Source: an uncultured Bacteroidia bacterium (GTDB taxonomy: Bacteria > Bacteroidota > Bacteroidia > JANWVE01). Taken from it: DNA of 47,055 nt. The number at the start of each line of letters is the position of its first letter. The first letter of the stretch is position 1. The stretch spans positions 1-47,055 of the forward strand of contig CALIZB010000001.1 in assembly GCA_938028625.1 (NCBI GenBank). The letters are read 5' to 3'. A model generated the notes under the pieces. The model saw only the letters and a list, made by a program, of their open reading frames with translations, was not told where the DNA came from and did not search any database. Made by a program: the position numbers and the translations under genes. Positions 5,150 to 21,782 of the stretch are shown here, piece after piece.

Positions 5150-6196
5150 ATGAATAAACCAAACTTTATTTACCTTGTTTTGTTAGTTTTGTTAAGCGGG
5201 TACGGCTGTGGTTTTAGACCCAATAAAGTAGAAACCCCCCGCTGGACAACGGAAATCCTTGCTCCATTAGTTAAAGCACCACTCTCTCCCGAAGAAATAG
5301 TACAACTTGATGAAGTTACTTTTTCAAAAGAGATTAAAATGAGTGATTTAGGAACGCCCAATGGTACTTATCCGTTGATACCCCCTATTCCGCCTACTTC
5401 GCTACCGCCTTATACTATACCCATAAGTGCAGATATAGCTTCCGTTACTTTTGCATCAGGTAAAATGGCTATGACTATTCAAAATAATTTGCCCATTAAC
5501 CTTAAAGCAGGTGCAACGGTAACTGTTGAAGTAGGTACAAATGTTTTTTTTACGCATAATTTGCCTAATGATATTAACCCAGGTGCAACCTACACCATGA
5601 CCCCTGAATATGACGTTACAGGCAAAACCTTATCTGAAAATATTACTCTTAAATTAACCAATTTTGCTTCTGACGGCAGTAGTAGTCCTGTTACTATCAA
5701 TGGTTCAGAAAAACTGACTATCAGTTTCAGTATTAAAGGCTTAAAAATTCAGAATATTGGGTTGGCTTCTAATAACAATTTTGAACTTTCGGATACTACG
5801 GATTTTTCTATTTCTGGTTCAAATGTTAATATGGGTGAAATTTCAGGTAAATTTGTTCTTTTTTCAGATAACCAAATGCCTATTCAAATGCGTGTGCAAG
5901 GTTACTTTTTAGATAGCACTAAAAAAGTAATGGACTCTTTACTTACAGGTACTCAACTCATCAATGCGGCTACGGTAGACGGTTCAGGGTTTTCTAATAG
6001 TACGGTAACCTCTTCGGTAGATATACCTGTTAGTACTGCTAAATTTGAAAAAATAAAGCCTGCTAAATACTTCAAAAGTTATGTAAAAGTATCTACGGGA
6101 AGCGGGGCGCCATTAGTATTTATTCGCAATACAGATAAACTCACCTTACAACTTGTAGCAGATATCAAAGTAAAAATTGAAAATAAACAAAACTAA
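5150..6196 (+). CDS. Secreted or lipid-anchored protein of unknown function
   Basis: A 348-residue exported protein I do not recognise by name. Residues 1-20 form a hydrophobic signal segment (IYLVLLVLLSGYGC), and Cys20 could be lipid-modified under the relaxed Bacteroidota lipobox, although the -3 residue is Gly rather than Leu or Val. The mature part is rich in Thr, Ser, Asn and short beta-prone stretches with no catalytic motif, and contains a Pro-rich segment (YPLIPPIPPTSLPPY), which suggests a beta-sandwich surface protein. The downstream gene for an outer-membrane protein starts 20 bp later, so the two very likely form one operon and may form one envelope assembly. The start is ATG at 5150, 4 bases after a TATATTTG box. 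Confidence 0.65.
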   Translation: MNKPNFIYLVLLVLLSGYGCGFRPNKVETPRWTTEILAPLVKAPLSPEEIVQLDEVTFSKEIKMSDLGTPNGTYPLIPPIPPTSLPPYTIPISADIASVTFASGKMAMTIQNNLPINLKAGATVTVEVGTNVFFTHNLPNDINPGATYTMTPEYDVTGKTLSENITLKLTNFASDGSSSPVTINGSEKLTISFSIKGLKIQNIGLASNNNFELSDTTDFSISGSNVNMGEISGKFVLFSDNQMPIQMRVQGYFLDSTKKVMDSLLTGTQLINAATVDGSGFSNSTVTSSVDIPVSTAKFEKIKPAKYFKSYVKVSTGSGAPLVFIRNTDKLTLQLVADIKVKIENKQN

Positions 6197-6216
6197 CCTT
6201 CTAACCTTGAAAAATC

Positions 6217-7542
6217 ATGAAAAAAACATATTTTTTTTTAATGGCTTTTATTGCCACCTATGTAAATGCACAGTACAATCTTTCTACTACGTACTGCGAA
6301 CATAATGACCTTAATGCGTCTCGTTATGAACCTTCTGAATTACATCTTGGTAAAAAACACGTTCAGATTGGTTCTAATTTTTATTTTTGGATAGCAAATA
6401 ATGCTTTGGATTATGGTACTATTCAAAAATTCCGTAAAGGTGATGCTGTTACAGACCAAGAGATAGATAATTTTGTCAATAATTTAGAAGCTAAAAACCA
6501 AATTGGTGCAGGGCAAGACTTTCAAATTGCAGGGCTTGCTTTACGACTTGGCAAAATGGATTTTTCTTTTAGTGCTGTGGATAAATTTGCTATGGAAATG
6601 AATTATTCCCAAAATTTAATGAAACTCGCATGGAAAGGAAATAAACAATTTGCAGGACAGCGTACTCAATTAGGACCTCTTTCGTTTAACGCACAATATA
6701 CACGCGAGTATGCACTTGGTACTGCTTTTAATGTAGCAGGAGATTTAGAGAAAGGACTTCGTGTAGGTGCAAGAGCAAAGTATATTCAAGGAATAGGTTC
6801 TATTTATATGCCGAAAAGCGATTTATACCTTACTACTGCATCTGACGGACGTTCTATTGAAGCAGAATTTGACTATAAATTGCAAAGTTCAGGTATCAAA
6901 AACTTCAATGGTATGAACTTTAACGGTATGGGCTACGGTATAGATGCAGGAATTAGTGCGCATCTTTCTAAACATTTTGAAATCAACGCAAGCGTATTAG
7001 ACTTTGGGGCAGTTACTTACAATCAAGATGTTAAAACGTATGAGAAAAAAGGTAAGTATATTTACGAAGGTGCTGTAATTAGTAATTTCTTTGGTGACCC
7101 CCGCTACAATGCGGATTCTATTGCCAGTCTGTTCAAACCCACAGAAACCTCAAACGGCAGTTATACTATGAGTTTAGGTACAAAAGTGCTATTACAAGGT
7201 GAATTAAAATGGGGCGGAAATATGGACGAAGAATTAGAAGATGAGGAGTATCAAGGACATTCTTTGTTTTTAACCTACATTCAAGGACTAAATAATATGC
7301 CTGGTGCTACCACTAAACCCTATTTATCCGTAGCTTACAACTATGACTTAAAGCGCATGTTTGATTTCGGAGTGTCTGCATCTATGGGAGGATATAACAA
7401 ATATGCCGTGGGGGCATTTTTTGCCTTTAACTTTGCGCATATTATTAAATTTGGTATTGGTTCAGATAATCTTATGCCATTAGTACAACCTAAACTCGGT
7501 ACAGGTGCAGATGTGTCTGTTAACCTATCGCTTGCGTTCTAA
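6217..7542 (+). CDS. Outer-membrane beta-barrel protein, DUF5723-like
   Basis: A 441-residue protein with a signal peptide (MKKTYFFLMAFIATYVNAQ, cleavage near residue 19) and alternating polar/hydrophobic beta strands throughout. It ends in the hydrophobic-aromatic pattern SVNLSLAF typical of outer-membrane barrels. The N-terminal region and the order of features resemble the DUF5723 group of Bacteroidota proteins; this is a recollection of family appearance and has not been searched. It follows a secreted or lipoprotein gene with a 20-bp gap, so the two are probably co-transcribed. Its 3' end overlaps the 3' end of the convergent glycosyltransferase gene by 18 bp. Localisation is inferred with good confidence; function is unknown. 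Confidence 0.7.
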   Translation: MKKTYFFLMAFIATYVNAQYNLSTTYCEHNDLNASRYEPSELHLGKKHVQIGSNFYFWIANNALDYGTIQKFRKGDAVTDQEIDNFVNNLEAKNQIGAGQDFQIAGLALRLGKMDFSFSAVDKFAMEMNYSQNLMKLAWKGNKQFAGQRTQLGPLSFNAQYTREYALGTAFNVAGDLEKGLRVGARAKYIQGIGSIYMPKSDLYLTTASDGRSIEAEFDYKLQSSGIKNFNGMNFNGMGYGIDAGISAHLSKHFEINASVLDFGAVTYNQDVKTYEKKGKYIYEGAVISNFFGDPRYNADSIASLFKPTETSNGSYTMSLGTKVLLQGELKWGGNMDEELEDEEYQGHSLFLTYIQGLNNMPGATTKPYLSVAYNYDLKRMFDFGVSASMGGYNKYAVGAFFAFNFAHIIKFGIGSDNLMPLVQPKLGTGADVSVNLSLAF

Positions 7543-8892
7543 ATCATAAAAAGTGAGTGTTAGCATCATAGCTATGATAGGAATACGATAGCGGTTTTCC
7601 ATGACAATAGCTACTAAAATCATCATATACACGATTAAAGACAATAAAAAATAAACGCTTATGTTCCTACGGAATGCATACAAGTTTCGTAGGAACAGCG
7701 TATATACAAATACCAAAAAAATAAAGTACAGCACACGAAACATAGTTTGTGGAACACTCTGCCGTATGAATTGGTGCTTTATTTTTTGCCAAAAACCTTG
7801 TTCATCAAAAACTTGTTTTAATCCTCTTTTTTGCAAAGAACCGAGATAGCTTTCCCAAGTCCAATTGCCAACACCGAATAGCATGTACGCACTTCCCTTG
7901 AAAAAAGAACGCACAAAGTCCATTTTGTGAGATAAAAAATATTTCTTGGCTTCTTTTTGAAAATATACATCATCTTCAAAAGTAATTGCGTTTGTAAGTG
8001 TGAGCAAATTAGTTGTATCGGTAACAGTTATATTCTGTTTTTTAATGTACTGAGTAGGATAACGGTTAAAAAATTGTATTTGGGTTTCTTCAAATCCTTG
8101 TCCCGTGATATGCTGTTCTACGGAAGCACAATAAAAAAATAACGCTTGCCAACCTTTTTGAGCTGTAAATACAAAATGCTGTGTATGTACATAATTTCGT
8201 AAAGCCCATATACTTGGTAACATTAGAATAACTATTGCATATACAAGGATATGTTTAACCTTGAAAATATGCTTGTAAATGCCATAAGCTACAAAAAATA
8301 AGGTTAAATACAAACTATATTGCGCTATGGGTCTAACGTATAAAGAAAGTACAAATAAAAATCCACTGATGTATAAAAAAAGAGATTTTTTTTCTTGCCA
8401 TGCTTTAAAAAAGTAGTATACAGCTGTTATCCATACAAATACAAACAAAGTTTCTGAACTGATATAGGTACAATAAGCAATATTATTCGGTTCAATAGCA
8501 TACAATAGCCCAGGTAAGAGATAATTTTTTGCTTTGAATGTGTATTTCGCAATGTAAGCAATACATAAAACTGTACTTGCAGAAAGTAAAATTTGCAGGT
8601 ATATGAGAACTTGTAAAGTTTTATCTATTAGTAGAGTACAAGCTATAAAAATAGGATAAGCAGGCGGTCTAAAAAAATCTTTGACTTCACCATTTGGGTA
8701 CTGTATCGCATAAGATTGGTGCGTAATGAGGCTTTGTGCTAATTTTAAGTAGTGTATTCCATCATTAACTTCATTACCTAATCCTTGTGGTTGACTTTTA
8801 GTTACTACAACAAAAAAAATAACTCTTATAAAAATTGCCCCTAAAAAAAGATAAAAAAAACTTTTATCATTTAGTAAAAAAGTCTTGCGCAT
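7525..8892 (-). CDS. GT-C type polytopic membrane glycosyltransferase (ArnT/PMT-like)
   Basis: A 455-residue integral membrane protein with about ten hydrophobic segments. Near the N-terminus, after the first membrane helix (FFYLFLGAIFIRVIFFVVV), a periplasmic-loop candidate contains acidic residues (NEVNDGIHYLKLAQSL) and then FFRPPAYPIF. This is the usual layout of GT-C/PMT-family enzymes, which use lipid-linked sugars and have their acidic catalytic site in the first periplasmic loop. The likely donor is polyprenyl-phosphate sugar, but the acceptor is unknown. The start is ATG at 8892. It follows the coiled-coil membrane protein gene by 14 bp on the same strand, and its 3' end overlaps the opposing gene by 18 bp. 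The fold call is good; the substrate is unknown. Confidence 0.7.
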   Translation of the reverse strand: MRKTFLLNDKSFFYLFLGAIFIRVIFFVVVTKSQPQGLGNEVNDGIHYLKLAQSLITHQSYAIQYPNGEVKDFFRPPAYPIFIACTLLIDKTLQVLIYLQILLSASTVLCIAYIAKYTFKAKNYLLPGLLYAIEPNNIAYCTYISSETLFVFVWITAVYYFFKAWQEKKSLFLYISGFLFVLSLYVRPIAQYSLYLTLFFVAYGIYKHIFKVKHILVYAIVILMLPSIWALRNYVHTQHFVFTAQKGWQALFFYCASVEQHITGQGFEETQIQFFNRYPTQYIKKQNITVTDTTNLLTLTNAITFEDDVYFQKEAKKYFLSHKMDFVRSFFKGSAYMLFGVGNWTWESYLGSLQKRGLKQVFDEQGFWQKIKHQFIRQSVPQTMFRVLYFIFLVFVYTLFLRNLYAFRRNISVYFLLSLIVYMMILVAIVMENRYRIPIIAMMLTLTFYDLERKR

Positions 8893-8906
8893 GCAAAAAA
8901 TGCAAG

Positions 8907-9785
8907 TTAGTATTTAAGTTTATCTTTATTGGCAGATTTATCTTCTATATCAAGATTATAGCCCATAGAATAGTCATCTATGCTAATAACGTTTTCTATT
9001 TCATTGAGTATAGATTGGCTATCTTCGGTTTCGGTAATGATTTCATTAACTTGATTAGCAATGCTGGTAGGGTCTTTCATAGTTAGAGATTGTTCTAATA
9101 AAAATTTTACATTATCTTCTACGGTATCAATTTGTACTTTCATCACTTCTGTACTTTCCATTACTTTTTGTATTTTATTCAAGCGTTTCTTCAATATATC
9201 TAAACGTTTCATTTTAGCTTTTTTAACAGCTTCGGTGTCATTCGGGATTTCTAATTCTAATTTAAGAATCTCGGTTTGTAGTTCAGCTTTTTTATTATCT
9301 GTAATGAATTGTTTGCATTTTTGCCAGTTGTAAAGGAGTTGTAAGTAGAGTTGCTCTAATTCATGTAATTTTTGGTAATAGGTGTCTAGTAGAACTTCGG
9401 AAGAACTTACATTTTTGTCATAGTTTATGCGAATCTGTTCTATATTTTTTCTTAAACTCATATAGCGGAGTTGAAGCGTTTTGTCTAGAGATTTAATCAT
9501 GTACATAGGACTGCGAAGTTCTTTTTTGTTGGCTTCTTCAATAGCGGCGAGTTTTTTGAGTTTAATAGCTTTGCGGAATCGCTTGTTGGTAGCTAGTGCA
9601 TTGACCAAAAAGACTTCCAGTGCTAATAGAACTGCGGCTAGACCGAGCGGATTGGCAAAGAAGTTCAGAATAAAACCAATTGCTACAAAAATAAGCACCG
9701 AAATCACCAGGAAAGCAATATTAAACGGATTGATAAAGGCTTCCTGATGATAGTTTATGTCTATATTGGTATTCTGTTTTTCCAT
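8907..9785 (-). CDS. Coiled-coil membrane protein of unknown function
   Basis: A 292-residue protein with a short polar N-terminus, a hydrophobic hairpin at about residues 20-65 (two membrane segments joined near NFFANPLG) and then a long, highly charged helical region with coiled-coil periodicity to about residue 225. The tail is acidic. No enzyme motif was seen. The start chosen is ATG at 9785; the frame also has an upstream TTG at 9794, but that TTG is the end of a TACTTTTG -7 box, so it is unlikely to be translated. The next gene, a GT-C glycosyltransferase, begins 14 bp downstream, which suggests co-transcription. It may be a scaffold of the inner membrane; this is inference only. Confidence 0.6.
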   Translation of the reverse strand: MEKQNTNIDINYHQEAFINPFNIAFLVISVLIFVAIGFILNFFANPLGLAAVLLALEVFLVNALATNKRFRKAIKLKKLAAIEEANKKELRSPMYMIKSLDKTLQLRYMSLRKNIEQIRINYDKNVSSSEVLLDTYYQKLHELEQLYLQLLYNWQKCKQFITDNKKAELQTEILKLELEIPNDTEAVKKAKMKRLDILKKRLNKIQKVMESTEVMKVQIDTVEDNVKFLLEQSLTMKDPTSIANQVNEIITETEDSQSILNEIENVISIDDYSMGYNLDIEDKSANKDKLKY

Positions 9786-9796
9786 GAGTAGCAAAA

Positions 9797-9815
9797 GTAC
9801 GCATAAAAAGCGTAC
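9797..9815. promoter_or_regulatory. Inverted repeat in the promoter of the coiled-coil gene
   Basis: GTACGC (9797-9802), a 7-nt spacer, then GCGTAC (9810-9815). It overlaps the minus-strand -7 box (TACTTTTG, 9799-9792) and extends upstream of it, a position suitable for an operator. The regulator is unknown. Confidence 0.4.
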
Positions 9816-9862
9816 AAGGTTAAGTTTTTTATGACAAAAAACGTTAAAAGTTTATCTTTTGT

Positions 9863-10972
9863 TTAGAGAGTTTTTCGTTTATCGTCTATGTATTTTTTTT
9901 GTTCGGGGGTGAGTTTGCATTTTTCGGCTTTACTGTATGCTTCCAGCGCACTGCTTTTATCAAATTGTGCGGCGCGTAAATCACCGAGTTTTATCCATGC
10001 TTCTGCATTTTGGGGGTCTATATCAATAGTTTTCTCTATTATTTTACCTAATTCACTGATATTTTTACCTGATTTTAAGGAATAATTGACAAAATACATA
10101 AGGTTTTCTGCTCTTTGTTTGGCAACTCCTGCAAGGATTTTTTGTTGCAGATACCCACTTTTTTCGTATTCTTTACAAGTTTCCTCGTACATATTAAGGG
10201 CAATGAGTGCTTTTTTAGGTTCATTGTTTTTAATAAAACCCTGTGCGTCTTTGTTATATTTTTCAAGGCGTTGTTTTTTCTCTTTTACGGACTGGTCGCT
10301 TTCTACTTCATTAGTTTCTACGACAAAATTATTTATGCTACCTGATAATTTACGCTCTGCTAAATCTTTCTCTGCTTCGGATATTTTAGGTATTTCTATA
10401 AATTTCTTGTAATTTTTTTGTGCTTCGGTTTTATCCCCGAGTTGAGAGTAAATATCACCCAAAAGCATGTAAGCCGTTGGATATTCAGGGGCTACTTTGG
10501 TAGATTTTTCAAGATATTTTATTGCTTTCTCTAAATTTTGATTCGTTTTAATAGCCGCCGCACCATAGTTACAGAGTATTTTGGCACGTGTACTTTTTTC
10601 ATTTTCTAATTCTCTGACAGCTTTCTCATCTTTTTCCAGTGCCTCACATTTGTTTTCAAACTCTTCCCATTTTGCCATAGCTGCGGCGTATTGTCCTTTA
10701 TTGGCTAAATCTATGCCTTCGTTACCTAATTTGAAAGCATCGGCAAGGTCTTTGTTACCTATATGGTGTGTCTGATGCTGAGATGTATCCACAGGTGTAT
10801 GGACTGCGGTATTTTTAGAAGCGGTGTCCTTTTTAGTGTTTTCTTTGTTGTCTTTTTTAGTAACTGTATCTTGTTTATTATCTTTTTTCTCTCCTCCGCA
10901 ACCAAACCAAAGTACAAAAAAAGTAAGCGCAAGAAGCGTTGCAGATACATAGTTAAAAGTTAAATAACGCAT
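9863..10972 (-). CDS. TPR-repeat lipoprotein
   Basis: A 369-residue protein with an N-terminal hydrophobic segment ending LWFGC, so Cys25 is the probable lipidated residue. A long, low-complexity Lys/Asp/Thr linker follows (about 27-70). The rest is helical, with tetratricopeptide-like repeats; the clearest lie at about 134-210, including KAIKYLEKSTKVAPEYPTAY and LLGDIYSQLGDKTEAQKNY, and at about 280-360. This points to a membrane-anchored protein-protein interaction scaffold facing the periplasm or the surface. The start is ATG at 10972. The coiled-coil membrane protein gene lies 77 bp downstream with its own promoter-like sequence, so co-transcription is uncertain. No partner can be named. 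Confidence 0.75.
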   Translation of the reverse strand: MRYLTFNYVSATLLALTFFVLWFGCGGEKKDNKQDTVTKKDNKENTKKDTASKNTAVHTPVDTSQHQTHHIGNKDLADAFKLGNEGIDLANKGQYAAAMAKWEEFENKCEALEKDEKAVRELENEKSTRAKILCNYGAAAIKTNQNLEKAIKYLEKSTKVAPEYPTAYMLLGDIYSQLGDKTEAQKNYKKFIEIPKISEAEKDLAERKLSGSINNFVVETNEVESDQSVKEKKQRLEKYNKDAQGFIKNNEPKKALIALNMYEETCKEYEKSGYLQQKILAGVAKQRAENLMYFVNYSLKSGKNISELGKIIEKTIDIDPQNAEAWIKLGDLRAAQFDKSSALEAYSKAEKCKLTPEQKKYIDDKRKTL

Positions 10973-11085
10973 AACTGATTTCCGAATAAATGTAATCTAC
11001 TACAAAACTAAAAAGTGTCTCTTAAATAGCAAATTTTCTTGTATGATTTTTTGACAGACAACTTTAGAGAAAGAGTAAAATAAAG

Positions 11086-12138
11086 CTAATTTTGTATAAT
11101 CATAGATGGGTTTAATCCTGAAACAAAACTGTGTTCTAAATTTCCTGTTTTGCTCAATATGAGTACTCTGCCATCATAGATAAACTGCCTGCTGGTGGTA
11201 ATGAACCATTTTTGCAGGGTTTCATCAAAATAAAAATTGTAAAACACTTCTCCAAATTCAGTAAAAAATTCTTTTTTTATCCATAGTTCAGGGGTAGTTA
11301 TTCCTTCATAATAGCGCATGATGCCGTTGTCATTCATTGCGTACACGGTATCCTGCACCGTGCGTATATGCGTGGGACTGTCTGAAACAGGGATGTTTTT
11401 CTCTATGCTGTCTGTATTTGTATTGATTTTACATACTGCCGAGATGGGGTTAATATAATCTCCGGTGCAGGAAACCCATAGATTTTGAGTATTGTCTAAG
11501 GCAAGATGTGTAGCATTTTCCACAGGTAAGACAATTTCTTTGATTTTGGTATCACTAAGTATGTCCCATACCACAAGATTTTTGTTTTTGAAATTTGGCG
11601 GATAATTGGATTGTGTAATATAAAGTTTGTTTTGTACAAGTTTCATCTCTTCGGGAAAACTAATAGCAAATGAACTTAAAACCTGCATTTCTGAGGGGTT
11701 AATTATCCATACTTTTTGTCCTGTCAAAGCACTAATATAAGCTTTTTTTGGGCTAACATAAACCATTTTTCGTAAATCACCGCCGTCAGGTATAATAAGC
11801 GTTTGTAGTATTTTAAGCGTTTTTGCATCAAGTTTGTAGATAGTATTGCTTGTAGAAACTACAATAAAAAGTGTATCCGCAATTTTTAGTATATCGTTTG
11901 CGGTATCACCGAGAATTTGGTTATTTACCATGTAAAATACATTTTTTTTAACTTCACGGCTAATAGGATTGTAGAACGTCAAAGTAGAGTTATTTTGTTG
12001 CCAAAGACCTTCGTTAAGAATAAGAATACCATGATATTGATTTGTAGAAATTGTGTTTTCATCAGGAAATAAAGGTTTTTTTACACAGGAACTGTATAAA
12101 AATAAGGTTAAGACCATAAATATTGCCCATCGAAGCAT
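11086..12138 (-). CDS. Beta-propeller lipoprotein, DUF5074/YncE-like
   Basis: A 350-residue exported protein. The signal segment ends LFLYSSC, so Cys is the probable lipid anchor. The mature part is a run of about seven four-strand repeats of the YncE/DUF5074 kind, with units such as ILILNEGLW, TIYKLDAKTLKILQTL, KVWIINPSEMQVLSSF and NLVVWDIL, which suggests a seven-bladed propeller. Related Bacteroidota proteins often lie beside TonB receptors for cobalamin or metals; a TonB receptor is on the same strand about 1.8 kb away, but hsp20 and sdaAA intervene. The start is ATG at 12138; an upstream TTG at 12150 belongs to a TATTTTTG -7 box. The ligand is unknown. Confidence 0.65.
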   Translation of the reverse strand: MLRWAIFMVLTLFLYSSCVKKPLFPDENTISTNQYHGILILNEGLWQQNNSTLTFYNPISREVKKNVFYMVNNQILGDTANDILKIADTLFIVVSTSNTIYKLDAKTLKILQTLIIPDGGDLRKMVYVSPKKAYISALTGQKVWIINPSEMQVLSSFAISFPEEMKLVQNKLYITQSNYPPNFKNKNLVVWDILSDTKIKEIVLPVENATHLALDNTQNLWVSCTGDYINPISAVCKINTNTDSIEKNIPVSDSPTHIRTVQDTVYAMNDNGIMRYYEGITTPELWIKKEFFTEFGEVFYNFYFDETLQKWFITTSRQFIYDGRVLILSKTGNLEHSFVSGLNPSMIIQN

Positions 12139-12157
12139 ATAGAAATGCAAAAATACA

Positions 12158-12191
12158 GAAAAAATAAACCTGTGGATAAAGTTCCACAGGT
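12158..12191 (-). terminator. Rho-independent terminator after hsp20
   Basis: An 8-bp perfect stem (ACCTGTGG at 12168-12175, CCACAGGT at 12184-12191) with an 8-nt loop. On the minus strand it is followed by TTTATTTTTT. It lies 27 bp past the hsp20 stop. Confidence 0.85.
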
Positions 12192-12218
12192 CAGATAAAC
12201 TTGCTTGTTTATTTAACT

Positions 12219-12638
12219 TTAATCTATCTGAATAAGTTGTTTTACGGGTTCTTGTACAGGTGTTTTAGGTAGAGTAATGGTAAGGATACCATTGTCAAAT
12301 TTAGCACTGATGTTATCCTTTTGTACGTTTTTAGGGACACGGAAAGAACGTTTGAATTTACCATATTTAATTTCTTTAAGGTGATAAGTAGTGTTTTCTT
12401 CGCGAGTTTCTTTGTGTTCTGCGGTTACGATAAGATAGTCGTCTTTGTGTTCTATGCTAACGTCTTCCTTTTTTACTCCTGCAATAGCGATTTCAATTTT
12501 GTAGTTGTCCGCAGTTTCTTTGATGTCTGTGCGGGGCATAAAGTCAAATTCAGGTTCTGTTTTGAAAAAGTTGCTGAACATTTCGTCAAAAACAGAAGGC
12601 TTTAAGAATGGACTTGCTAAGGTGATTTTTGTACTCAT
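12219..12638 (-). CDS. Small heat shock protein, Hsp20/alpha-crystallin family
   Basis: An ATP-independent holdase that binds unfolding proteins in the cytoplasm. The 139 residues comprise a short N-terminal arm, an alpha-crystallin domain from about residue 36 (PRTDIKETADNYKIEIAIAG) through FRVPKNVQ and GILTITLPK, and a short tail with an IQI element that could serve as the IxI assembly motif. The start is ATG at 12638: it has a strong Shine-Dalgarno sequence (AAAGGAG, 9-nt spacing), and an upstream TTG in the same frame at 12692 would add an unrelated 18-residue extension. The upstream region holds a 17-bp direct repeat containing promoter-like boxes. It ends in a strong terminator, so it is monocistronic. 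Confidence 0.93.
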   Translation of the reverse strand: MSTKITLASPFLKPSVFDEMFSNFFKTEPEFDFMPRTDIKETADNYKIEIAIAGVKKEDVSIEHKDDYLIVTAEHKETREENTTYHLKEIKYGKFKRSFRVPKNVQKDNISAKFDNGILTITLPKTPVQEPVKQLIQID

Positions 12639-12728
12639 ATTGAAGTTCTCCTTTCTGAATACGTTACTTTCAAGTCTTGTGCCATAAAACAAAAAAGACT
12701 GAATATCAATAATTTACAAGAATAATGT

Positions 12729-12777
12729 ATGACAAAATTACAGGTATCTTTTTTGTAAAGATGACAAAATTACAGGT
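12729..12777. repeat. 17-bp direct repeat upstream of hsp20
   Basis: ATGACAAAATTACAGGT occurs exactly at 12729-12745 and again at 12761-12777 (period 32). Read on the minus strand, each copy contains TAATTTTG, a match to the TAnnTTTG -7 box, so the duplication would give hsp20 two tandem promoter cores or two regulator sites. Leader length from these boxes to the ATG would be about 90-130 nt. Confidence 0.6.
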
Positions 12778-12864
12778 TTTTTAGGCTTGTCTCTGAAAAT
12801 GAATGTCTTAAAAAATGACACTTTTTCAGTGCATTTTTTGGAGAATTTATGTTATCTTTGAAGT

Positions 12865-13770
12865 ATGGATATTTTATTTGATAGCTTTGAAGAGTGGGCA
12901 AAATACTGTGAAGTTCAAAAAGTACTGCCGCATATAGCCGTATTAGAGTATGAGATGAAGCAAAAAAATCGTACAAAGGAGGAGATATGGGCAGGATTGG
13001 CAAGAGCTTTTGAGGTTATGCGGGAAGCCGTAAAAACAGGGTTAAGTGATGACATGCGTTCGCGTTCAGGAATGATAGACAACGGTGCAAAGCGGGTAAA
13101 AAATGCGTCTGTTTCTGTATTAGGTGAGAATTTTCAGCAATTGGTCTATAATGCATTAGCAGCAAAAGAAGTAAATTCTTGTATGGGCAGAATTGTGGCG
13201 GCACCTACGGCAGGCGCATCAGGGATTATGCCAGGGGTACTTACCACCCTGCAAAATTTACACAAAATTCCGAATGAAAAAATTTATGAAGCTATGCTTA
13301 TCAGCGCGGGCATAGGTTTGATTATAGAACGGAAGGCAAGCATAGCAGGGGCAGTAGGTGGCTGTCAGGCAGAAACAGGTACAGCTGCGGCTATGGCTTC
13401 GGGGGCAGTAGTGTATTGTTTGGGCGGAGATTTATCTCAGATTTTTGATGCGGTAGCTATCACTATACAATGTATGCTCGGCTTAATCTGCGACCCTGTG
13501 GCAGGATTGGTAGAAGTTCCCTGTGTAGTACGTAATGCATCCGCTGCGGCTATTGCATTCAGCTCTGCCCAGATGGCATTAGCAGGATTAAAAACCGTTA
13601 TTCCCGTAGATGAGGTCATAGATGCTATGGGGGAGGTAGGCGCAAGTATGGAAAGTAAATATAAAGAAACCGCACTCGGCGGACTTGCGGCTACTAAAAC
13701 CGCTAAAATGATAGAAAAGAGAGTATTAGTGTCTGATATTGAAATTTTACCTGACGATACACAACTGTAA
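12865..13770 (+). CDS. sdaAA: L-serine dehydratase (ammonia-lyase), iron-sulfur, alpha chain
   Basis: Converts L-serine to pyruvate and ammonia with a [4Fe-4S] cluster as Lewis acid. The 301 residues match the alpha (cluster-binding) chain of the two-subunit form. Conserved motifs are SRSGMIDNGAKRV, APTAGASGIMPGVL and three cysteines in the expected contexts: C167 (GGCQAE), C209 (CDPVAG) and C220 (VPCVVRN). The beta chain is not in this window, and no fused beta domain is present, so it must be encoded elsewhere or be missing. The start is ATG at 12865, only 4 bases after a TATCTTTG box (12853-12860), with no Shine-Dalgarno sequence; this suggests a leaderless or very short leader. A GC-rich element fills the downstream convergent gap. 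Confidence 0.93.
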   Translation: MDILFDSFEEWAKYCEVQKVLPHIAVLEYEMKQKNRTKEEIWAGLARAFEVMREAVKTGLSDDMRSRSGMIDNGAKRVKNASVSVLGENFQQLVYNALAAKEVNSCMGRIVAAPTAGASGIMPGVLTTLQNLHKIPNEKIYEAMLISAGIGLIIERKASIAGAVGGCQAETGTAAAMASGAVVYCLGGDLSQIFDAVAITIQCMLGLICDPVAGLVEVPCVVRNASAAAIAFSSAQMALAGLKTVIPVDEVIDAMGEVGASMESKYKETALGGLAATKTAKMIEKRVLVSDIEILPDDTQL

Positions 13771-13780
13771 AATGTCCATT

Positions 13781-13884
13781 TGCGTGAGGCATGCGAAGGG
13801 CTGGCCGTAAGGCTTGGCACGAAGCACAAGCCTGTAGTACGCCGACCTGAACCCTGAGCCTGCCAAAGGGTGAAGGACGCACCC
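13781..13884. repeat. GC-rich multi-stem intergenic element
   Basis: A GC-rich island in an AT-rich genome, filling the gap between the convergent sdaAA and TonB-receptor genes. Pairings visible by eye are a closing stem TGCGT (13781-13785)/ACGCA (13877-13881); a hairpin GGCTTGGC (13811-13818) with GC-A-CAAGCC (13824-13832) and loop ACGAA; an alternative GGCC-GTAA-GGCT hairpin capped by a GNRA-type loop; and a two-part helix CCT/AGG and ACCCT/AGGGT separated by a symmetrical GA/GA internal loop (13846-13876). This looks like a dispersed repeat or structured RNA. It may also act as a two-way terminator. Copy number cannot be seen from one window. Confidence 0.5.
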
Positions 13885-13905
13885 AAGATGATGTAAAAAC
13901 AGAAA

Positions 13906-15888
13906 TTATATTCCAAAACGATAACCTAACCGTATAAGAAACTCTCGGTTTAGGGAGGGCAGAGCATTTACTCCACCCTTGTATGGCTGAATAAAAACAA
14001 AACTTTCATTGAATATGTTGTAAACTCCCAATCCTATCTCTAATCCTTTGAGGTTGAATATATTGGTATAAGTTAGGTACAAATTTGTCATAAAAACAGG
14101 CTTGTATGTGGCAATACTGTCAATTCCTGCATATCCGTACCTTTTACTTAAAAAAGTCTGACAAATATTGATGTTAAATTGTTTGTGAGGTCTTATGTTT
14201 AATTCAGTACATACCTTATGTTGTGCGTTTCCTAAAAGAACATTTTTCTGTTTAGGCACTTCATACAACTGAATCTTATTGATAACATTGTAATAATAAG
14301 AATAACTGAATACAATACTGCCCCAACTGCGTTTGAATATGCTTTCTAACTCTGCACCTATATTGCCAGATGAGTCAAAATTATAGTAATATTCAGCAAT
14401 GGTATCTGCAGTATAGATAATAGGGTCATTCAGATGGACATCAAACAAATTAAAACTCACATAGAAGTTCTTGTCAAACTTATAGGTAGTACCAATTTCA
14501 AAAGTATAAATGCGTTCAGGGTTAATGGTGTTTTTGTTCAGTTCTGCAAGACGTATATTTTCCATAACGGGTGCGCGGAATGCTCCACTGGTCATGAGTT
14601 TGAGAGTGAGTTTTTCAGCAAAAGTACGGTTAACTACAAATCTCGGGCTGAATGCCCCTGCAAAAACATTGTGCTTGTCATAACGCAAACCAAGTGTAAA
14701 ATTGGCTATTTTAGTGTGCAGGGTGGCTTGTGTAAAAGCGGCAATATTGTAATAGAACGCTTTATAGGAGCTATCTTTAAAGAGTTCGTCAGGGGTAGAA
14801 TTTTTGTCAGCAATACATTGGTCTTGATAAGACTCTACTCCCCATTGTATATCAACATTTTCTTTAGGTTTATAGATGAAGAGAATATTCTCCTTATAAC
14901 GGTATGCGGTTTTATTGTAATGATAGGGAGTAACTGCAGGTAATGCGGGTTTTTGCCAGGGAGTGTTTCTTTTTATAGTAACCGTAGGCAAGCATTCTAA
15001 TTTTTCACCCATTTTTACTTTGTAACCAGCGTACAGGTTAAAAGATTTGAAATAAATATCTGATGTTTTTTCTGTATTATTTCCGAACAAAATTCGGTCC
15101 TTAAGGAGATAGTTATCAAATAAACCGGATAAAGTAAAATTTTTATATTCCATTTTAGCAGATACGCTCATAGGGCGGACAAGACTGTTGTTATTTTCTC
15201 CCATGTTAAAACTACTTCCATAGAAGTCTGTGAAGTTTTCATTGCTGCGAATACTTTGTCCGTACAAGGTATGCACACCTATATTTAAGCCATTTTCCCA
15301 TTTTTTTGTGATATTAAGATGGGCATTAGTGCGGCATAGTCTATCATAAAATGCACCTGCTGTGGTATTCAGTCGGATATTATTGCCATCACTACCATCT
15401 TTGGTAATAATGTTAATCACACACAAACCTGCGTATCCTCCGTAGAGAGCAGAACCTGGACCGCGGATAATTTCTATTCGCTTAATTGCTTGTATATCAT
15501 AATGATTACCAAACTGCGTAGTACCAAATAGGTTTTCATTAAGTTCAATACCATCTTGTAAAATAAGCACTTTACCTTCATGTCCCCATAAACCTCTCAT
15601 AGTTATTCCTACTATGGATTCTACATCATGTCCAAACTGGATACCGGGTATCATCATAAGAATATCCGTTAAATCTCTTGCGCCTGAATATTTTATTTCT
15701 TCTTGTGTGATAAAAGAAACAATAGCTGGGGACTCAAGAATTTTTGTTTTTTGTTTGTTGGTTACTTCAATGGTAGTATTGAGCATCTCTTCTACACTCA
15801 TGTCAAAAAAATCATTTTCTTGCTGAGCAAAAGAATACCATGAATAGCTCAATGTAAGTAGATACAGGTATAAAATTTTGGTTTTCAT
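13906..15888 (-). CDS. TonB-dependent outer-membrane receptor
   Basis: A 660-residue energised outer-membrane transporter. The signal peptide is MKTKILYLYLLTLSYSWYSFAQ. It is followed by a plug domain (about 40-160) with the typical patterns SPAIVSFITQEEI, DLTDILMMIPGIQ, MRGLWGHEGKVLILQDGI and RIEIIRGPGSALYGGYAG, and then a 22-strand-type barrel ending REFLIRLGYRFGI. No carboxypeptidase-like N-terminal domain and no SusC signature are present, so it is of the siderophore/cobalamin/metal receptor type. It starts 12 bp after the stop of a solute-binding protein gene on the same strand, which strongly suggests one operon. No cobalamin riboswitch was recognised upstream. Substrate is undetermined. 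Confidence 0.92.
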   Translation of the reverse strand: MKTKILYLYLLTLSYSWYSFAQQENDFFDMSVEEMLNTTIEVTNKQKTKILESPAIVSFITQEEIKYSGARDLTDILMMIPGIQFGHDVESIVGITMRGLWGHEGKVLILQDGIELNENLFGTTQFGNHYDIQAIKRIEIIRGPGSALYGGYAGLCVINIITKDGSDGNNIRLNTTAGAFYDRLCRTNAHLNITKKWENGLNIGVHTLYGQSIRSNENFTDFYGSSFNMGENNNSLVRPMSVSAKMEYKNFTLSGLFDNYLLKDRILFGNNTEKTSDIYFKSFNLYAGYKVKMGEKLECLPTVTIKRNTPWQKPALPAVTPYHYNKTAYRYKENILFIYKPKENVDIQWGVESYQDQCIADKNSTPDELFKDSSYKAFYYNIAAFTQATLHTKIANFTLGLRYDKHNVFAGAFSPRFVVNRTFAEKLTLKLMTSGAFRAPVMENIRLAELNKNTINPERIYTFEIGTTYKFDKNFYVSFNLFDVHLNDPIIYTADTIAEYYYNFDSSGNIGAELESIFKRSWGSIVFSYSYYYNVINKIQLYEVPKQKNVLLGNAQHKVCTELNIRPHKQFNINICQTFLSKRYGYAGIDSIATYKPVFMTNLYLTYTNIFNLKGLEIGLGVYNIFNESFVFIQPYKGGVNALPSLNREFLIRLGYRFGI

Positions 15889-15900
15889 AGGCTTGAGATT

Positions 15901-17625
15901 TTATTTATATCGTACAAACTCTGTAGGTGTATAGAAAGCGGCAGGATTAAATCCCGGAAAATATGCGGTTACAGGATAAGTAAATACATTCTGAAAACGG
16001 CTGTTAATAACAATTTTTGACTGTGGTGACCATAATAAAACAACAGGATAGTCTCCCATAATCATCTCCTGCAGGTTGTCATACAGTATTTTTTTGCGGT
16101 TGCTGTCTTTTTCTTTGAGAATCTGTTCAATCAAAGCATCTGAATTGGCATTTCCGAAACCTGTAAAATTTGCACTGCTTTTCGTATGCCATGAGCTATA
16201 GGGATTAACAATACCTATGCCCTCGGTTACTTTACCAAGATACAAGTCAAATTCTTTTTTACTAAGTTTTTGGGTATGTTCGCTGATAGTGCGTTCTGCG
16301 ATACTAAGTTTTACACCAATTTGCTTGAACGCTTCTGAAAGGTAATGTGCAATTTTACGATATTCATGGTTGCCCTCTATAAGGCTAAGTTCTAGTTCAA
16401 TGTATTTTTTGTCTTTGTTGTACCGAAAGCCTTCATCATCAGTTTGATTGTATCCGAGTTTTTCTATAATCTGAATGGCTTTTTCTGTATCCGGCTGAAT
16501 CATCGGAATTTTTTCATTATACCCGATTTTTTTTTCGGGAATACCCGGGCAGGTAAGTCTTCTTCCATATTCTTTGGCTACTTTGTTGAGAAAATAATCT
16601 ACATCAACCGCTAAGGTAAGTGCTTTTCTTAATTCAGTATTGGCAAGCAAGGTTTTTCTGGTATTTATCCCTATATAGAGATATTCCAAAGTATTAGAAG
16701 TTCTGAGCTTATAGTGATAATAATTGCTATCAGATTTGGATAGTTCCACAAATTCTTTGGCAGGCAAGTCATATACAACATCTAAATCCTGTAAGGTAAT
16801 CATGGTCATGGTGAGTTTGAGGTCTTTGACAACTTTGTAAATAATTTTTTTCTGATTGGCAACAAAGAGTTCGCCGGGTTCGCTGTAATAATTATCTCCC
16901 CACCAGATATCTTTTCGTTCAAGGACAAGTTCTTCGTTAGGTTTGCATGAAGCAAAATAGTAAGCCCCCGAAGCACAAGCTTTATTGAAAAGAATTTTGT
17001 TGTTAAAGTCTTCACTATTAAACTGTTCTGCAAATTTTATGATTTTGGTATTGTTTGCTAGTTCTACGGTATCTTGATTGAGTTCCTGTATAGAAAATTT
17101 TGACATCAGGTTTTCAGGGTCAAAGAGATGTCTGGGAAGTATTTTAAGCAAGGCAATGCTGTGACTGACCTGTTCATATTTTACTTCAAATTTTTTGTTG
17201 TTATTTTTGTCTATTTTTATATTTGATACACCGTGATAAAAATGCCGTATGCGTGAGGATTTTACTCTGGGATTTTTGATAACTTTAAGGGTAAATTCTA
17301 CATCCTCTGCGGTAATCGGGGTACCATCTCCCCAGACAGCATCGTTCTTTATTTCAAAAATATGGGATTTGCCGTCCTCACTGCGTACAGGCAGGGAAGC
17401 TAAAAACGGAATAATTTCCAGCGTTTGGGGATTTACTCCGTTCAAACTCTGAAACACAAAGTGATTGATGTTCTGTACTTTAGGACTAGTGTTAATGATA
17501 GGATTAAGAAAATCTATATCTGTAGAATGACGGATAACCACCCAGTCATTCGGTTTTTTATAGTTTTGTCCCAAAACAAGGGCTGTCAGAATTGTTAAGC
17601 AAAAATTTAAAGGGAAGTGCTTCAT
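15901..17625 (-). CDS. Extracellular solute-binding protein, family 5 (peptide/nickel type)
   Basis: A 574-residue periplasmic binding protein of the SBP_bac_5 family (DppA, OppA, NikA). It shows a signal peptide (MKHFPLNFCLTILTALVLG), the early motif FQSLNGVNPQTLEIIPFLAS, the family signature region WGDGTPITAEDVEFTLKVI, and the late segment KKEFDLYLGKV and FGNANSDALIEQILKE. The start is ATG at 17625; a TTG at 17652 in the same frame would put nine residues before the signal peptide. It is the first gene of a two-gene operon with the TonB receptor. No ABC permease or ATPase genes are nearby, so either they are encoded elsewhere or this protein works with the receptor alone. The ligand may be a peptide, metal chelate or other solute. 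Confidence 0.88.
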   Translation of the reverse strand: MKHFPLNFCLTILTALVLGQNYKKPNDWVVIRHSTDIDFLNPIINTSPKVQNINHFVFQSLNGVNPQTLEIIPFLASLPVRSEDGKSHIFEIKNDAVWGDGTPITAEDVEFTLKVIKNPRVKSSRIRHFYHGVSNIKIDKNNNKKFEVKYEQVSHSIALLKILPRHLFDPENLMSKFSIQELNQDTVELANNTKIIKFAEQFNSEDFNNKILFNKACASGAYYFASCKPNEELVLERKDIWWGDNYYSEPGELFVANQKKIIYKVVKDLKLTMTMITLQDLDVVYDLPAKEFVELSKSDSNYYHYKLRTSNTLEYLYIGINTRKTLLANTELRKALTLAVDVDYFLNKVAKEYGRRLTCPGIPEKKIGYNEKIPMIQPDTEKAIQIIEKLGYNQTDDEGFRYNKDKKYIELELSLIEGNHEYRKIAHYLSEAFKQIGVKLSIAERTISEHTQKLSKKEFDLYLGKVTEGIGIVNPYSSWHTKSSANFTGFGNANSDALIEQILKEKDSNRKKILYDNLQEMIMGDYPVVLLWSPQSKIVINSRFQNVFTYPVTAYFPGFNPAAFYTPTEFVRYK

Positions 17626-17718
17626 ACAATAAAGGAACTTAACATAGTGCAAGTATAGTGTTTTTTTTGCATCAGTCCAAAAATATAATTTCAGGTTTTA
17701 TTTTTGCCTTTTTCAGGT

Positions 17719-17742
17719 ACGCTGTTCAGCGTTTTTCTTTTT
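17719..17742 (+). other. Palindrome with T-run in the divergent gap
   Basis: ACGCTGTTCAGCGT (17719-17732) is a perfect 14-bp two-fold palindrome apart from its central TT, followed by a T-rich run to 17742. It has the form of a terminator on the plus strand, but no plus-strand gene lies directly upstream. It may therefore be an operator for the divergent solute-binding protein gene. Use is uncertain. Confidence 0.35.
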
Positions 17743-17855
17743 CTGAGAGTGCTGAAATTTATTTTGTGAGTTGAACACATTTGTTTTGAACATTCCGCAG
17801 CATATAGTTGTTACAAGTTTTAGTTAAACACAAGAGAAGTTTTATACAATAACTT

Positions 17856-17885
17856 TTGGCACATAAATTGAATTTTGTATCTTTG
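17856..17885 (+). promoter_or_regulatory. Promoter of the LolA-like gene
   Basis: TTG at 17856-17858 and TATCTTTG at 17878-17885 with a 19-nt gap, an exact fit to the Bacteroidota TTG-N19-TAnnTTTG consensus. Only 9 bases separate the -7 box from the ATG. Confidence 0.75.
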
Positions 17886-17894
17886 TAAAAATTT

Positions 17895-18557
17895 ATGCAG
17901 AGCTTTCATATTTCTTTTATTATATTATCTTTTGCTGTTGTTTCGCTATCTACAACAGCACAAATAGACCCAAAAAGTAAAACTATCATGGATAATTCAT
18001 GGAATAAGTTCAGGTCTATTAGTAAAATGACAGCGACTATTAAGGTTAAAACAGAGGGTCCTAATATCCAAAAACCAGAAAGTAAAATTGGGAAAGCTGT
18101 TGTGAGTGGTAATAAGTACAGAATTACCTTCTCCACAGAAGGCAGAGAAATTATCTGTGATGAGAAAGCTGTATATAGCTATGACAAAAAAGCTAATGAG
18201 GTTACTATCAGTGAGTATTCTGAAGAGAATTCAGAATTTTCCCTTAATGCTTTTTACGAACAGTACCGTAAAGAACCCAAAGGAAAATACGTGGCAGAAG
18301 AAAAATTAGCCAACGGTACACTGGTAGACCATATTGAACTGTATCCGCCTGCACGCAGAAAAACCAATATTGTACGCATACATTTATGGGTGAATAGAAA
18401 TACGCATCTTGTAGAACAAATGAAAGTGCAGGACAGAAGTCAGAATTTCGTTACTTACATTTTTACAGATGTTCAGATTAACGGAACTGTTTCTGCATCA
18501 GATTTTACTTTCGATGCGTCCAAGTATCCTAATGCCAATATCGTAGATTTGCGATAA
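17895..18557 (+). CDS. LolA-like outer-membrane lipoprotein carrier
   Basis: A 220-residue periplasmic protein of the LolA fold, which carries lipoproteins from the inner to the outer membrane. It has a signal peptide (IILSFAVVSLSTTAQ), then the characteristic opening IMDNSWNKFRSISKMTATIKV, the strand pair GKAVVSGNKYRITFSTEGREIICDEKAVYSYDKKANEV (in two parts), and the late segment RNTHLVEQMKVQDRSQN with TYIFTDVQINGTVSASDFTFD near the end (read as separate strands). The spacing and these motifs agree with the Bacteroidota LolA group. A consensus promoter lies just upstream. The gene is followed by a 301-bp gap with strong secondary structure. LolA itself or a paralogue cannot be distinguished. 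Confidence 0.82.
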   Translation: MQSFHISFIILSFAVVSLSTTAQIDPKSKTIMDNSWNKFRSISKMTATIKVKTEGPNIQKPESKIGKAVVSGNKYRITFSTEGREIICDEKAVYSYDKKANEVTISEYSEENSEFSLNAFYEQYRKEPKGKYVAEEKLANGTLVDHIELYPPARRKTNIVRIHLWVNRNTHLVEQMKVQDRSQNFVTYIFTDVQINGTVSASDFTFDASKYPNANIVDLR

Positions 18558-18858
18558 CCCCACGGACTATAACCGTTTTAGGGATTATATTCATGAGAAG
18601 CAGGCAAAAAGCCCGCTTTCGCTTTTTAGGTAGGGGTATATAAATATTCGTGGTATACTTTCAGGTTATTGAGTAGAACGCGTTCGTACCGAAACGACCT
18701 GAAAGTTCACGTTACCTGCAAAGAATAGTTTGCCAACAAAAAAAGCAGACATTACATGAAAACTGTATTTCTCTGATGTCGTTTATATGAACACTCGGAA
18801 GCGGGTGTATCCGATACGTTATACGTTAGAGTCGTGGCAAGTCAATACTTAATCTTGG
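18558..18858. other. Structured 301-bp intergenic region, possible ncRNA
   Basis: No coding frame is convincing here. Structures visible are AAAAAGC (18606-18612)/GCTTTTT (18621-18627), which may terminate the LolA-like gene; a 9-bp stem CTTTCAGGT (18658-18666)/ACCTGAAAG (18697-18705) enclosing the perfect palindrome GAACGCGTTC (18676-18685); a 7-bp hairpin ACACTCG (18791-18797)/CGGGTGT (18802-18808) with a GAAG loop; and a direct repeat ATACGTT-ATACGTT near 18815. It does not match tmRNA, RNase P RNA, SRP RNA or a riboswitch that I can recognise. It lies between two convergent genes. Confidence 0.4.
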
Positions 18859-20388
18859 TTAGCTTTTGCCTACTATCAGAACCTGTCCGGGGTGAAGTGC
18901 GTTACCATTAAGTTTATTCCACTGTTTAAGGTCACTGACGGTTACACCATGTTTATTGGCAATAAGCCATAACGAGTCTCCGCTTTGTACCGTATAATAG
19001 ATAACTCCTTTTTGGGCTTGCGTCTGTAATCCTTGGCGGGAGTAGTTGTTTGTTTTTGTATTTTTGGTATTAGCCAGTTTGGATTTGTCTACTATTTCAC
19101 CGCTTTCACTGGGCTTATAAATGAGTAGTTTTTTACCTGCCCATATTTTATCTGCAACGATGTTATTCCATGCGCATAGGTCCTGCTTGCTTACTCCGTA
19201 TTTCTGTACGATTTCAGTTACGGTTTCACCTTGCTGAACAATATGCACAATTTCTTTGTTTTTAGGTTCTTTGAATACAGAACCGTCTTTAATTTTTTGT
19301 TGTAGTTCCTCCTGAGGAGATACGGTTGCCAGAGTACCTTTGCCAAGATAAGCCATTCTGTTCTGATTTACTTTTTTGTTAATACCATACGGCACGCGCA
19401 AGATATAAGGTTCATTGGATTTATTCACTACACCGCGTTTCAGTTCAGGATTCATGGCTTTAATTTCTTCGGGGTCTGCACCTACATTTTTTGCAAATTG
19501 AGTTAAATCTAAATAGGAAGTAACATGTAAGGTATCTCCAAAGTAAGAAAAGTCTGTAAGTTTGGGATATAAATTGTGTTCTGCATAATAGTGCATAATA
19601 TACACTGCGGCAATAAAACCAGGCACATAATTTTTGGTTTCCCCGGGCAGATACTGACGGATAACCCAATAGTTGAGAGAACCATTTGCCATTTGGATAG
19701 CACGGTTAACGTTACCAGGTCCGCAGTTGTAAGCGGCTAAAACTAAATGCCAATCACCGTATATTTCGTAAAGCGTTTTTAAGAATACGCAAGCGGCTTC
19801 GGTTTCTTTAACAGGGTCTCTGCGTTCATCTATGTAGGAGTTTATTTTCATACCATACATCTTTCCTGTGCTGTGAATAAACTGCCATAGCCCCACAGCA
19901 CCTGCGCGGGACGTGGCTAAGGGATTAAAAGCACTTTCTATAATAGGCAGGTATTTAAGTTCCATAGGTAGCCCATGTCTGTCCAAGGCTTCTTCAAAAA
20001 TAGGAAAATAAACTGATTGCAAGCCGAGTAATCTACCTATCTGTTCTTTCCTTTTAGCATACATACGTATAAACTTGCCTACATCTTCATGATAAACCAA
20101 CGGGATAACAGCAGGAATTAAACTTAATCTACGTTCATACTCTTCATCAGTATAATCAGGGACTAATTCAGGGGTAAAATTATATTTGCTTATTCGGGAG
20201 GTGTCCACAGGATAGGTACGTGCATTTTTGTATACCATGTATACGATACTGTCTAATCGCTGTAAAATTTCACTGTTTATTGGGTCTTTCTGTGTGTTGC
20301 TTGCTCCTGAAAGCTGTTTGTTGGGCTGGGCATGAAGCAAAAATACACTCATACAAAGTCCTGCAACAAAAGAAATGGTTTTTTTCAT
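18859..20388 (-). CDS. mltD: Membrane-bound lytic transglycosylase D-like protein with two LysM domains
   Basis: Cleaves the glycan strand of peptidoglycan to form 1,6-anhydro-muramyl products in the periplasm. The 509 residues comprise a signal peptide (cleavage after LLHA, about residue 20), an SLT-type catalytic domain at about 125-260 with the catalytic Glu151 in PIIESAFNP, the family motifs RAGAVGLWQFI and LAAYNCGPGNVNRA, and two LysM domains at about 372-417 (HIVQQGETVTEIVQKYGVS) and 461-507 (YTVQSGDSLWLIANKHGVT). The typical MltD form has one or more C-terminal LysM domains, so the architecture is standard. The signal peptide ends in AQ rather than Cys, so it is probably periplasmic rather than lipid-anchored. 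Start ATG at 20388. Confidence 0.93.
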   Translation of the reverse strand: MKKTISFVAGLCMSVFLLHAQPNKQLSGASNTQKDPINSEILQRLDSIVYMVYKNARTYPVDTSRISKYNFTPELVPDYTDEEYERRLSLIPAVIPLVYHEDVGKFIRMYAKRKEQIGRLLGLQSVYFPIFEEALDRHGLPMELKYLPIIESAFNPLATSRAGAVGLWQFIHSTGKMYGMKINSYIDERRDPVKETEAACVFLKTLYEIYGDWHLVLAAYNCGPGNVNRAIQMANGSLNYWVIRQYLPGETKNYVPGFIAAVYIMHYYAEHNLYPKLTDFSYFGDTLHVTSYLDLTQFAKNVGADPEEIKAMNPELKRGVVNKSNEPYILRVPYGINKKVNQNRMAYLGKGTLATVSPQEELQQKIKDGSVFKEPKNKEIVHIVQQGETVTEIVQKYGVSKQDLCAWNNIVADKIWAGKKLLIYKPSESGEIVDKSKLANTKNTKTNNYSRQGLQTQAQKGVIYYTVQSGDSLWLIANKHGVTVSDLKQWNKLNGNALHPGQVLIVGKS

Positions 20389-21578: not shown

Positions 21579-21651
21579 GTTCTTGTAGCTCAGTTGGTAG
21601 AGCATCTCACTTTTAATGAGGGGGTCCTGGGTTCGAGTCCCAGCAAGAACA
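21579..21651 (+). tRNA. tRNA-Lys (TTT)
   Basis: Acceptor GTTCTTG/CAAGAAC, D-arm with AGTTGGTAGAGC, anticodon loop CTTTTAA giving TTT, and T-arm CTGGG-TTCGAGT-CCCAG. The discriminator is A and CCA is not encoded. Confidence 0.97.
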
Positions 21652-21660
21652 CATAAAGAT

Positions 21661-21742: not shown

Positions 21743-21751
21743 CGGGTACTT

Positions 21752-21782
21752 GCTGACGATAAGAAAACTTCGTCTGCATTTT
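21752..21782 (+). terminator. Possible terminator after tRNA-Leu
   Basis: GACGA (21755-21759)/TCGTC (21770-21774), extended by GC/GC across a T-T mismatch, followed by ATTTT. It separates the Lys-Leu unit from the second tRNA promoter. Confidence 0.5.

Follow-up and report, generated by a model that had tools for sequence, protein, structure and literature searches.

A branched, dispersed repeat in the intergenic DNA of a Bacteroidia bacterium, probably a mobile DNA element related to Flavo-1

A GC-rich element between convergent genes

In an uncultured Bacteroidia bacterium a serine dehydratase alpha-chain gene and a TonB-receptor gene converge, their 3' ends 135 bp apart. What fills the gap? 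Within the stretch analysed (47,055 nucleotides, hereafter the window), positions 13781-13884 of this gap had a G+C content of 62%, and the receptor-side surroundings fell to 29-38%. A preliminary description, made from the letters alone, had marked these positions as a GC-rich multi-stem element that could be a dispersed repeat, a structured RNA or a two-way terminator. We found that they were exactly one copy of a dispersed element of ~115 bases, and that the limits first drawn were those of the family, TGCGTG...CGCACCC. The copy matched our covariance model (R1) over its full length at 78.8 bits (E 1.3e-16), and it is probably a copy of a non-coding, dispersed, non-autonomous mobile DNA element of the class Bacteroidia.

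On the plus strand the unit ran P1 (GCGTG/CACGC), A, P2, GA, P3 hairpin, purine, P1, CCC and an A-rich tail. P2 contained GNA/GNA tandem G-A internal loops, in each of which two G-A pairs enclose a free middle pair, and ended in a four-way junction that carried three hairpins (H1, H2 and H3) and left no base unpaired in its consensus form. The parts of the window copy and the neighbouring genes are as follows.

12865-13770, plus: L-serine dehydratase alpha chain gene (Pfam PF03313, SDH_alpha), left convergent neighbour
13781-13884, plus: the complete element, a decayed copy matched by R1 and given in the plus sense of that model
13781-13785, plus: closing stem P1, 5' strand TGCGT, its register shifted by one base in this copy; the consensus of the family is GCGTG, one base further on
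13788-13794, plus: P2 lower stem, 5' strand GGCATGC, with a conserved A mismatch
13795-13797, plus: GAA side of the P2 GNA/GNA (tandem G-A) internal loop
13798-13800, plus: P2 upper stem, 5' strand GGG; other copies have GCA/TGC in place of GGG/CCC
13810-13833, plus: copy-specific hairpin AGGCTTG...CAAGCCT, standing in for the family's inner hairpins H1-H3; H3 is deleted here
13831-13843, plus: P2 3' strand, CCT, GTA (internal loop) and GTACGCC; the first three bases compete with the copy-specific hairpin
13844-13845, plus: GA linking P2 to P3, without variation in the genus and conserved class-wide as CCGACC
13846-13876, plus: P3 hairpin CCT-GAA-CCC...GGG-TGA-AGG, with a tandem G-A internal loop; elsewhere a hairpin of unrelated sequence
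13877-13881, plus: closing stem P1, 3' strand ACGCA (CACGC in the consensus of the family); P1 covaries class-wide
13906-15888, minus: TonB-dependent receptor gene (Pfam PF07715, Plug), right neighbour, its 3' end facing the CCC end of the element 21 bases off

The closing stem TGCGT/ACGCA and the helix with the GA/GA loop were thus present as originally drawn, and the tandem G-A motif singled out at the time proved to be a hallmark of the family. On the minus strand, a spurious 159-aa open reading frame (13437-13916) crosses the element antisense to the serine dehydratase, and gene callers may annotate it. Elsewhere in the window, a cluster of seven tRNA genes lies at 21579-23544, and one more tRNA gene at 34878-34949 on the minus strand.

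The window copy was decayed, with H3 lost and H1 and H2 refolded into AGGCTTG/CAAGCCT, which accounts for its modest folding z-scores (-1.8 as plus-strand RNA, -2.4 as minus-strand RNA and -2.3 as DNA). The evidence for structure is carried by the family and not by this single copy. For 27 copies aligned with MAFFT without fitting to any structure (alignment A3), RNAalifold returned P1, P2, the three inner hairpins and P3 unaided. Across the 35 drawn pairs, 97.4% of alignment cells paired, compared to 92.9% in shuffled alignments and 23-45% when one strand was slid. Changes on both sides of a pair occurred at 12 pairs, a number reached by none of 500 shuffles. The same pairing and covariation were seen in copies from the window's own genome (G000, n=34) and from two sister species (G001, n=150; G002, n=71), in alignments fitted to the model and so leaning towards it. 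The fold, comprising P1, P2 with its four-way junction and P3, is therefore real, and the expectation of many copies with compensatory changes was strongly borne out. A chance GC-rich gap in which stems happen to be drawable, a reading for which the modest z-scores of the single copy might speak, is refuted by the covariation of a dispersed family and by the empty reversed-pattern controls given below. In some G001 copies (L115:10757-10932, L286:1388-1532), H2 contains a long GC-rich insertion, GCCCCTCGCCCA...GGGGTGGGCGGGTGGGGC, which is a second type of nested hairpin. The G000 copies have a P3 loop, GAACCCTGAGCTTGCCGAAGGG (window 13849-13873), that recurs as isolated pieces of 21-22 bp in genomes of other families, including G010 and G020, as though the element had taken up a common hairpin of separate origin.

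Copies across the genus and their placement

The genus was sampled by three genomes: the window's own (2.9 Mb in 170 contigs) and the two sister species. G001 is Bacteroidia bacterium isolate SKYG108 (JANWVE01), which, to judge by the isolate name, may be a hot-spring metagenome-assembled genome, and its serine dehydratase is 92% identical to that of the window. The suggestion of a dispersed repeat held in the own genome by three routes, with 35 places found by BLASTN of the gap, 57 by model R1 and 46 by an independent pattern. This strict pattern, covering the 3' half, occurred 46 times in G000, 1,490 times in G001 and 729 times in G002, and its reversed control not once in any of the three; a 5' motif was counted 46, 1,076 and 223 times, respectively. 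Since G001 contigs often end at copies, the G001 numbers are lower bounds. When the 35 BLASTN copies of G000 were extended to full length they could be aligned between TGCGTG and CGCCC. The sequence to either side was unique, and BLASTN at 1e-4 revealed no shared flanking repeats, so that the repeat unit of the window's genome is one element of ~115 bases. Another repeat, ATTTCGGTAYGCTATYGCTACTCAATGACCA, was found next to or within some G000 copies (L039, L041; flanks of L019, L030 and L037).

Most G001 copies formed inverted pairs, with their CCC ends outward, around an AT-rich spacer, most often of 339-341 bp (middle half of the distribution, 286-341), and the spacer of G002 composites measured 108-110 bp. 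Whole composites had lengths of ~570 bp and ~350 bp. The G001 spacers of 339-341 bp were 76% identical at the median and contained degenerate ACCTTGT...ACAAGGT modules. In composite spacers of ~339 bp (e.g., L110:7173-7510, L116:11162-11499), four to six degenerate modules of ~40 bp, AACCTTGTAAGTACTTGAAAATSAATATNAAACAAGGTAAA, follow one another in a fixed order. Within 489 kb of sampled G001 sequence, 132 of the 144 gaps of at least 250 bp held a copy, compared to 5 of the 150 shorter ones, with gaps taken from the ORF-based calls of our own simple gene caller and the element itself lengthening the gap it occupies. Tandem, convergent and divergent gaps were filled alike.

Orientation was uneven in the window's own genome. 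In 31 of 34 copies, the gene on the CCC side pointed towards the element (binomial ~4e-7 at even odds; 16 against 2 in tandem gaps), which usually lay 5-110 bp from the stop codon of that neighbour. No such bias was found among class-wide loci (19:16), and the composites of the sister genomes, as inverted dimers, place both orientations in one gap. The G000 bias would fit an insertion preference as well as selection at transcript ends and may reflect one or the other.

The filling of more than 90% of the larger G001 gaps, in every gap type, together with the G000 bias towards gene 3' ends, might suggest that the host maintains the element to organise its chromosome or transcription, as a two-way terminator, an insulator or a nucleoid-protein site. 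We regard this as very unlikely. The own genome holds only ~50 copies per 2.9 Mb, which argues against an essential general role, and copy number is low in most of the class. The terminator initially proposed did not survive inspection: an A-run follows the element on the plus strand and, read on the minus strand, a T-run precedes the fold, so that the hairpin lacks a U-run on its 3' side in either direction and an intrinsic two-way terminator was rejected.

Gene order in positions 1-20000 of the window, compared with G001 and G002, was broken into blocks of single transcription units with 70-83% DNA identity. At least 10 of these blocks lay on different contigs in both sister genomes, to which assembly fragmentation contributes, and block ends were also found inside sister-genome contigs.

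Evidence for a probable mobile element folding as DNA

Stems of RNA families normally use wobble pairs freely. In the family studied here, the stem cells comprised 7,537 Watson-Crick pairs, 24 G.U and 9 A.C, counted in the plus sense with isolated loop pairs left out. The third base of the GC-GNNA-GC loops was T or C in 367 of 477, the opposite of GNRA, and triloops were mostly GNA, the type that caps the very stable DNA mini-hairpins d(GCGNAGC), of which GCGAAGC is used in DNA. RNA-seq of Flavobacterium psychrophilum placed hits to Flavo-1, a related motif discussed below, indistinctly in sense and antisense of transcripts, and many outside them, with no consistent strand (PMC9723704). The near-pure Watson-Crick stems, the GNA and GNNA loops and the lack of a consistent strand in Flavo-1 together favour a DNA-level element, folding as a single-strand hairpin or a cruciform.

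The alternative is a structured RNA, either an sRNA or a 3'-UTR element, that was copied genome-wide and that in this genus acts at the 3' end of the CCC-side gene as an mRNA stabiliser or regulatory site. The listing of Flavo-1 as an sRNA in Rfam, the covariation of all stems, the orientation of 31 of 34 G000 copies towards gene 3' ends and the plus-sense excess of G.U over A.C would agree with it, and the last of these, slight as it is (24:9), leaves, together with the orientation bias, some probability to an RNA role, including one of a plus-strand RNA. However, the sense strand of the adjacent gene in that bias is the minus strand, on which plus-strand G.U pairs become A.C mismatches, so the G.U excess falls on the wrong strand. 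The scarcity of wobble pairs, the pyrimidines in the GNNA loops, the F. psychrophilum data, the unbiased class-wide orientation and the inverted dimers also speak against RNA, and we consider this reading unlikely. The structured half of the original proposal of a structured RNA is thus upheld and the RNA half is the less likely one.

Mobility is suggested by the fixed spacer lengths of the composites and by two comparisons between genomes. A tandem gene pair separated in G000 only by CC between stop and ATG has in G001 a full single element directly after the stop, followed by 19 bases to the ATG, and a composite present in G001 corresponds to a 33-bp gap in G002. These pairs show presence against absence, and a gain appears more likely than a precise loss. 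Of the features expected in a MITE of a DDE transposon, terminal inverted repeats occurred only in the composites of G001 and G002, the G000 copies being single, and inspection by eye of 34 flanks and of one empty/filled pair gave no sign of a target-site duplication. No larger element with the same ends was seen in the genome stretches examined, genome-wide searches covering the Y1 families only, and none of 44 class-wide loci pointed to a shared neighbour gene as an autonomous partner.

A special case of the mobile-DNA reading takes the element as the palindrome of a TnpA-REP transposase and its composites as REPIN dimers. Atypical structures have been reported on the flanks of TnpA-REP subclass 2.6 of Bacteroidetes (PMC6006769), and the fixed-spacing inverted dimers, the extragenic location and the hairpins of single-stranded-DNA type would fit. 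One single lead also points this way: at locus L386 a Flavo-1-type copy starts only a few bases past the stop codon of a TnpA-REP-like ORF of 187 aa, which has the HUH motif MPNHIH and YIANNP and no reported Pfam hit. Against this, Pfam Y1_Tnp (PF01797) had no hits in the three genus genomes, an absence weakened by the L386 protein itself, which falls below Pfam reporting and shows that one subtype could be missed. A subclass 2.6 profile that we built found nothing in the genus, and tblastn of the L386 protein, run on 0.92 Mb from G000, 0.59 Mb from G001 and 0.37 Mb from G002, gave no match. Approximately 30 Y1 loci in other genomes had neither the strict element nor RF01705 (Flavo-1) nearby, and the closing stem lacked a GT[AG]G foot at its base, the element starting with TGCGTG and containing GTAG only inside P2. 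RAYT/IS200 mobilisation was provisionally set aside, because the two profile searches of the three genus genomes and the tblastn search over the stretches just named found nothing and because Y1 genes elsewhere lack the element; a REP/REPIN origin seems unlikely to us.

For the mobile DNA element that we favour, we postulate that the fold works at the level of single-stranded or extruded DNA, not of RNA, and that the unit is spread by a trans-acting enzyme recognising the junction. Copies would persist chiefly between transcription units, since an insertion is least harmful in such gaps, and the near-perfect stems may be kept by enzyme recognition, by palindrome correction during replication or by both. 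Amplification in the window's genus has brought the element to between tens and ~1,500 copies.

Relationship to Flavo-1 and other known systems

The preliminary description had recognised no known family. This was right for the window copy, which matched no Rfam family (for Flavo-1, none at E up to 1), and missed the relatives across the class that share its junction and match RF01705. The covariance model found matches in 13 further genomes of other families. The strict 3'-half pattern, CCGACC N{4,34} GGRCACGCCC, occurred in 98 of 395 Bacteroidia genomes and 49 of 197 genera, mostly with 1-10 copies per genome (78 in G039 and 51 in G019). Its reversed control was far lower overall but did match in some genomes, and a few isolated hits (e.g., L323, L324) resemble coding DNA, so single class-wide hits should not be trusted. 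Class-wide loci with the full GCGTGAGG...CACGCCC layout were therefore read directly. Their P3 was a hairpin of unrelated sequence and length (2.5 pairs versus 0.30 when shuffled), and three of the loci matched RF01705 above its gathering threshold and four below it.

Flavo-1 is an RNA motif (Rfam RF01705; Weinberg et al. 2010, PMC2864571) that Rfam lists as a candidate sRNA and whose family has been listed among the most abundant bacterial sRNAs (PMC9029176). To avoid circularity, we took RF01705 matches in 295 genomes, 108 of which were positive, and read the flanks of the fetched loci. P1 was found in none of 10 canonical Flavo-1 loci, which have C as the junction base. At loci with A in the junction a 5-bp P1 was complementary in 9 of 9, with seven different 3' sequences (CACGC, CATGC, CGCGC, AACGC, TACGC, AACCC and TTTGC), compared to 2.0 on average and at most 5 of 19 after the flanks had been swapped between loci. 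P1 is therefore a real helix, and the RF01705 model covers only P2, without P1 and P3. The three-way junction layout (P1, A, P2, CCGACC, P3, GG[AG], P1, CCC, A-rich tail) was found in the window copy, in the genus, in the 13 other genomes and in the Flavo-1 loci sampled without bias. RF01705 (gathering threshold 42 bits) matched no other copy of the genus at E up to 5, and none in G000-G002, so the genus is placed by shared layout as a divergent branch and not as a scored member. By this comparison the window family would be a divergent, hugely amplified branch related to Flavo-1.

We suggest, tentatively and with less confidence than we place in the mobile element itself, that Flavo-1 and the genus element could form one superfamily of DNA-folding mobile elements that share a conserved three-way junction, occur across Bacteroidia and are moved by a non-Y1 enzyme; filling nearly every larger gap in one lineage of hot-spring type, they may drive the loss of gene order between sister species. 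A mobile DNA element, with a fold larger than that in Rfam, would then be the better reading of the Flavo-1 sRNA family. With >90% of its larger gaps holding an element, the lineage would be an unusual case of selfish palindromes saturating a genome, in which the limits to copy number (46 versus 1,490 in one genus) and the scrambling of gene order are open to study. Covariation almost without wobble pairs could also serve as a criterion for DNA- versus RNA-level structure in other orphan Rfam families.

A literature search by element sequence returned no relevant paper, and the nearest comparisons are with four known systems. Like the window family, Flavo-1 is dispersed, restricted to Bacteroidetes and built on a P2 with repeated GNA/GNA tandem G-A loops; the two symmetrical G-A internal loops that mark the Flavo-1 P2 hairpin have their loop type in the window family too, but in a different stem order. 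Its junction-A loci also share the P1-A-P2-GA-P3-R-P1 layout, the CCC-A tail and, in most, CCGACC. Unlike Flavo-1, the genus copies have a four-way junction inside P2, number 46 to 1,490, lie below RF01705 reporting and, in the sister species, form inverted dimers of fixed length. REP/REPIN sequences with their RAYT are likewise short, extragenic, high-copy palindromic repeats with inverted dimers at fixed spacing, but the fold of the window family is much larger and branched, has no GT[AG]G foot and has no RAYT found in the genus. CGTC-tagged palindromic repeats are extragenic, occur in Bacteroidetes among other phyla and were reported without a dedicated transposase (PMC3733652); compared by description, these are simple palindromes of 20-40 bp, whereas the window family combines a three-way with an internal four-way junction. 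Integron attC sites resemble it only in how they work, as a branched single-strand DNA fold whose structure is kept while its sequence varies, and unlike them the window family lies outside cassette arrays, with inverted dimers genome-wide.
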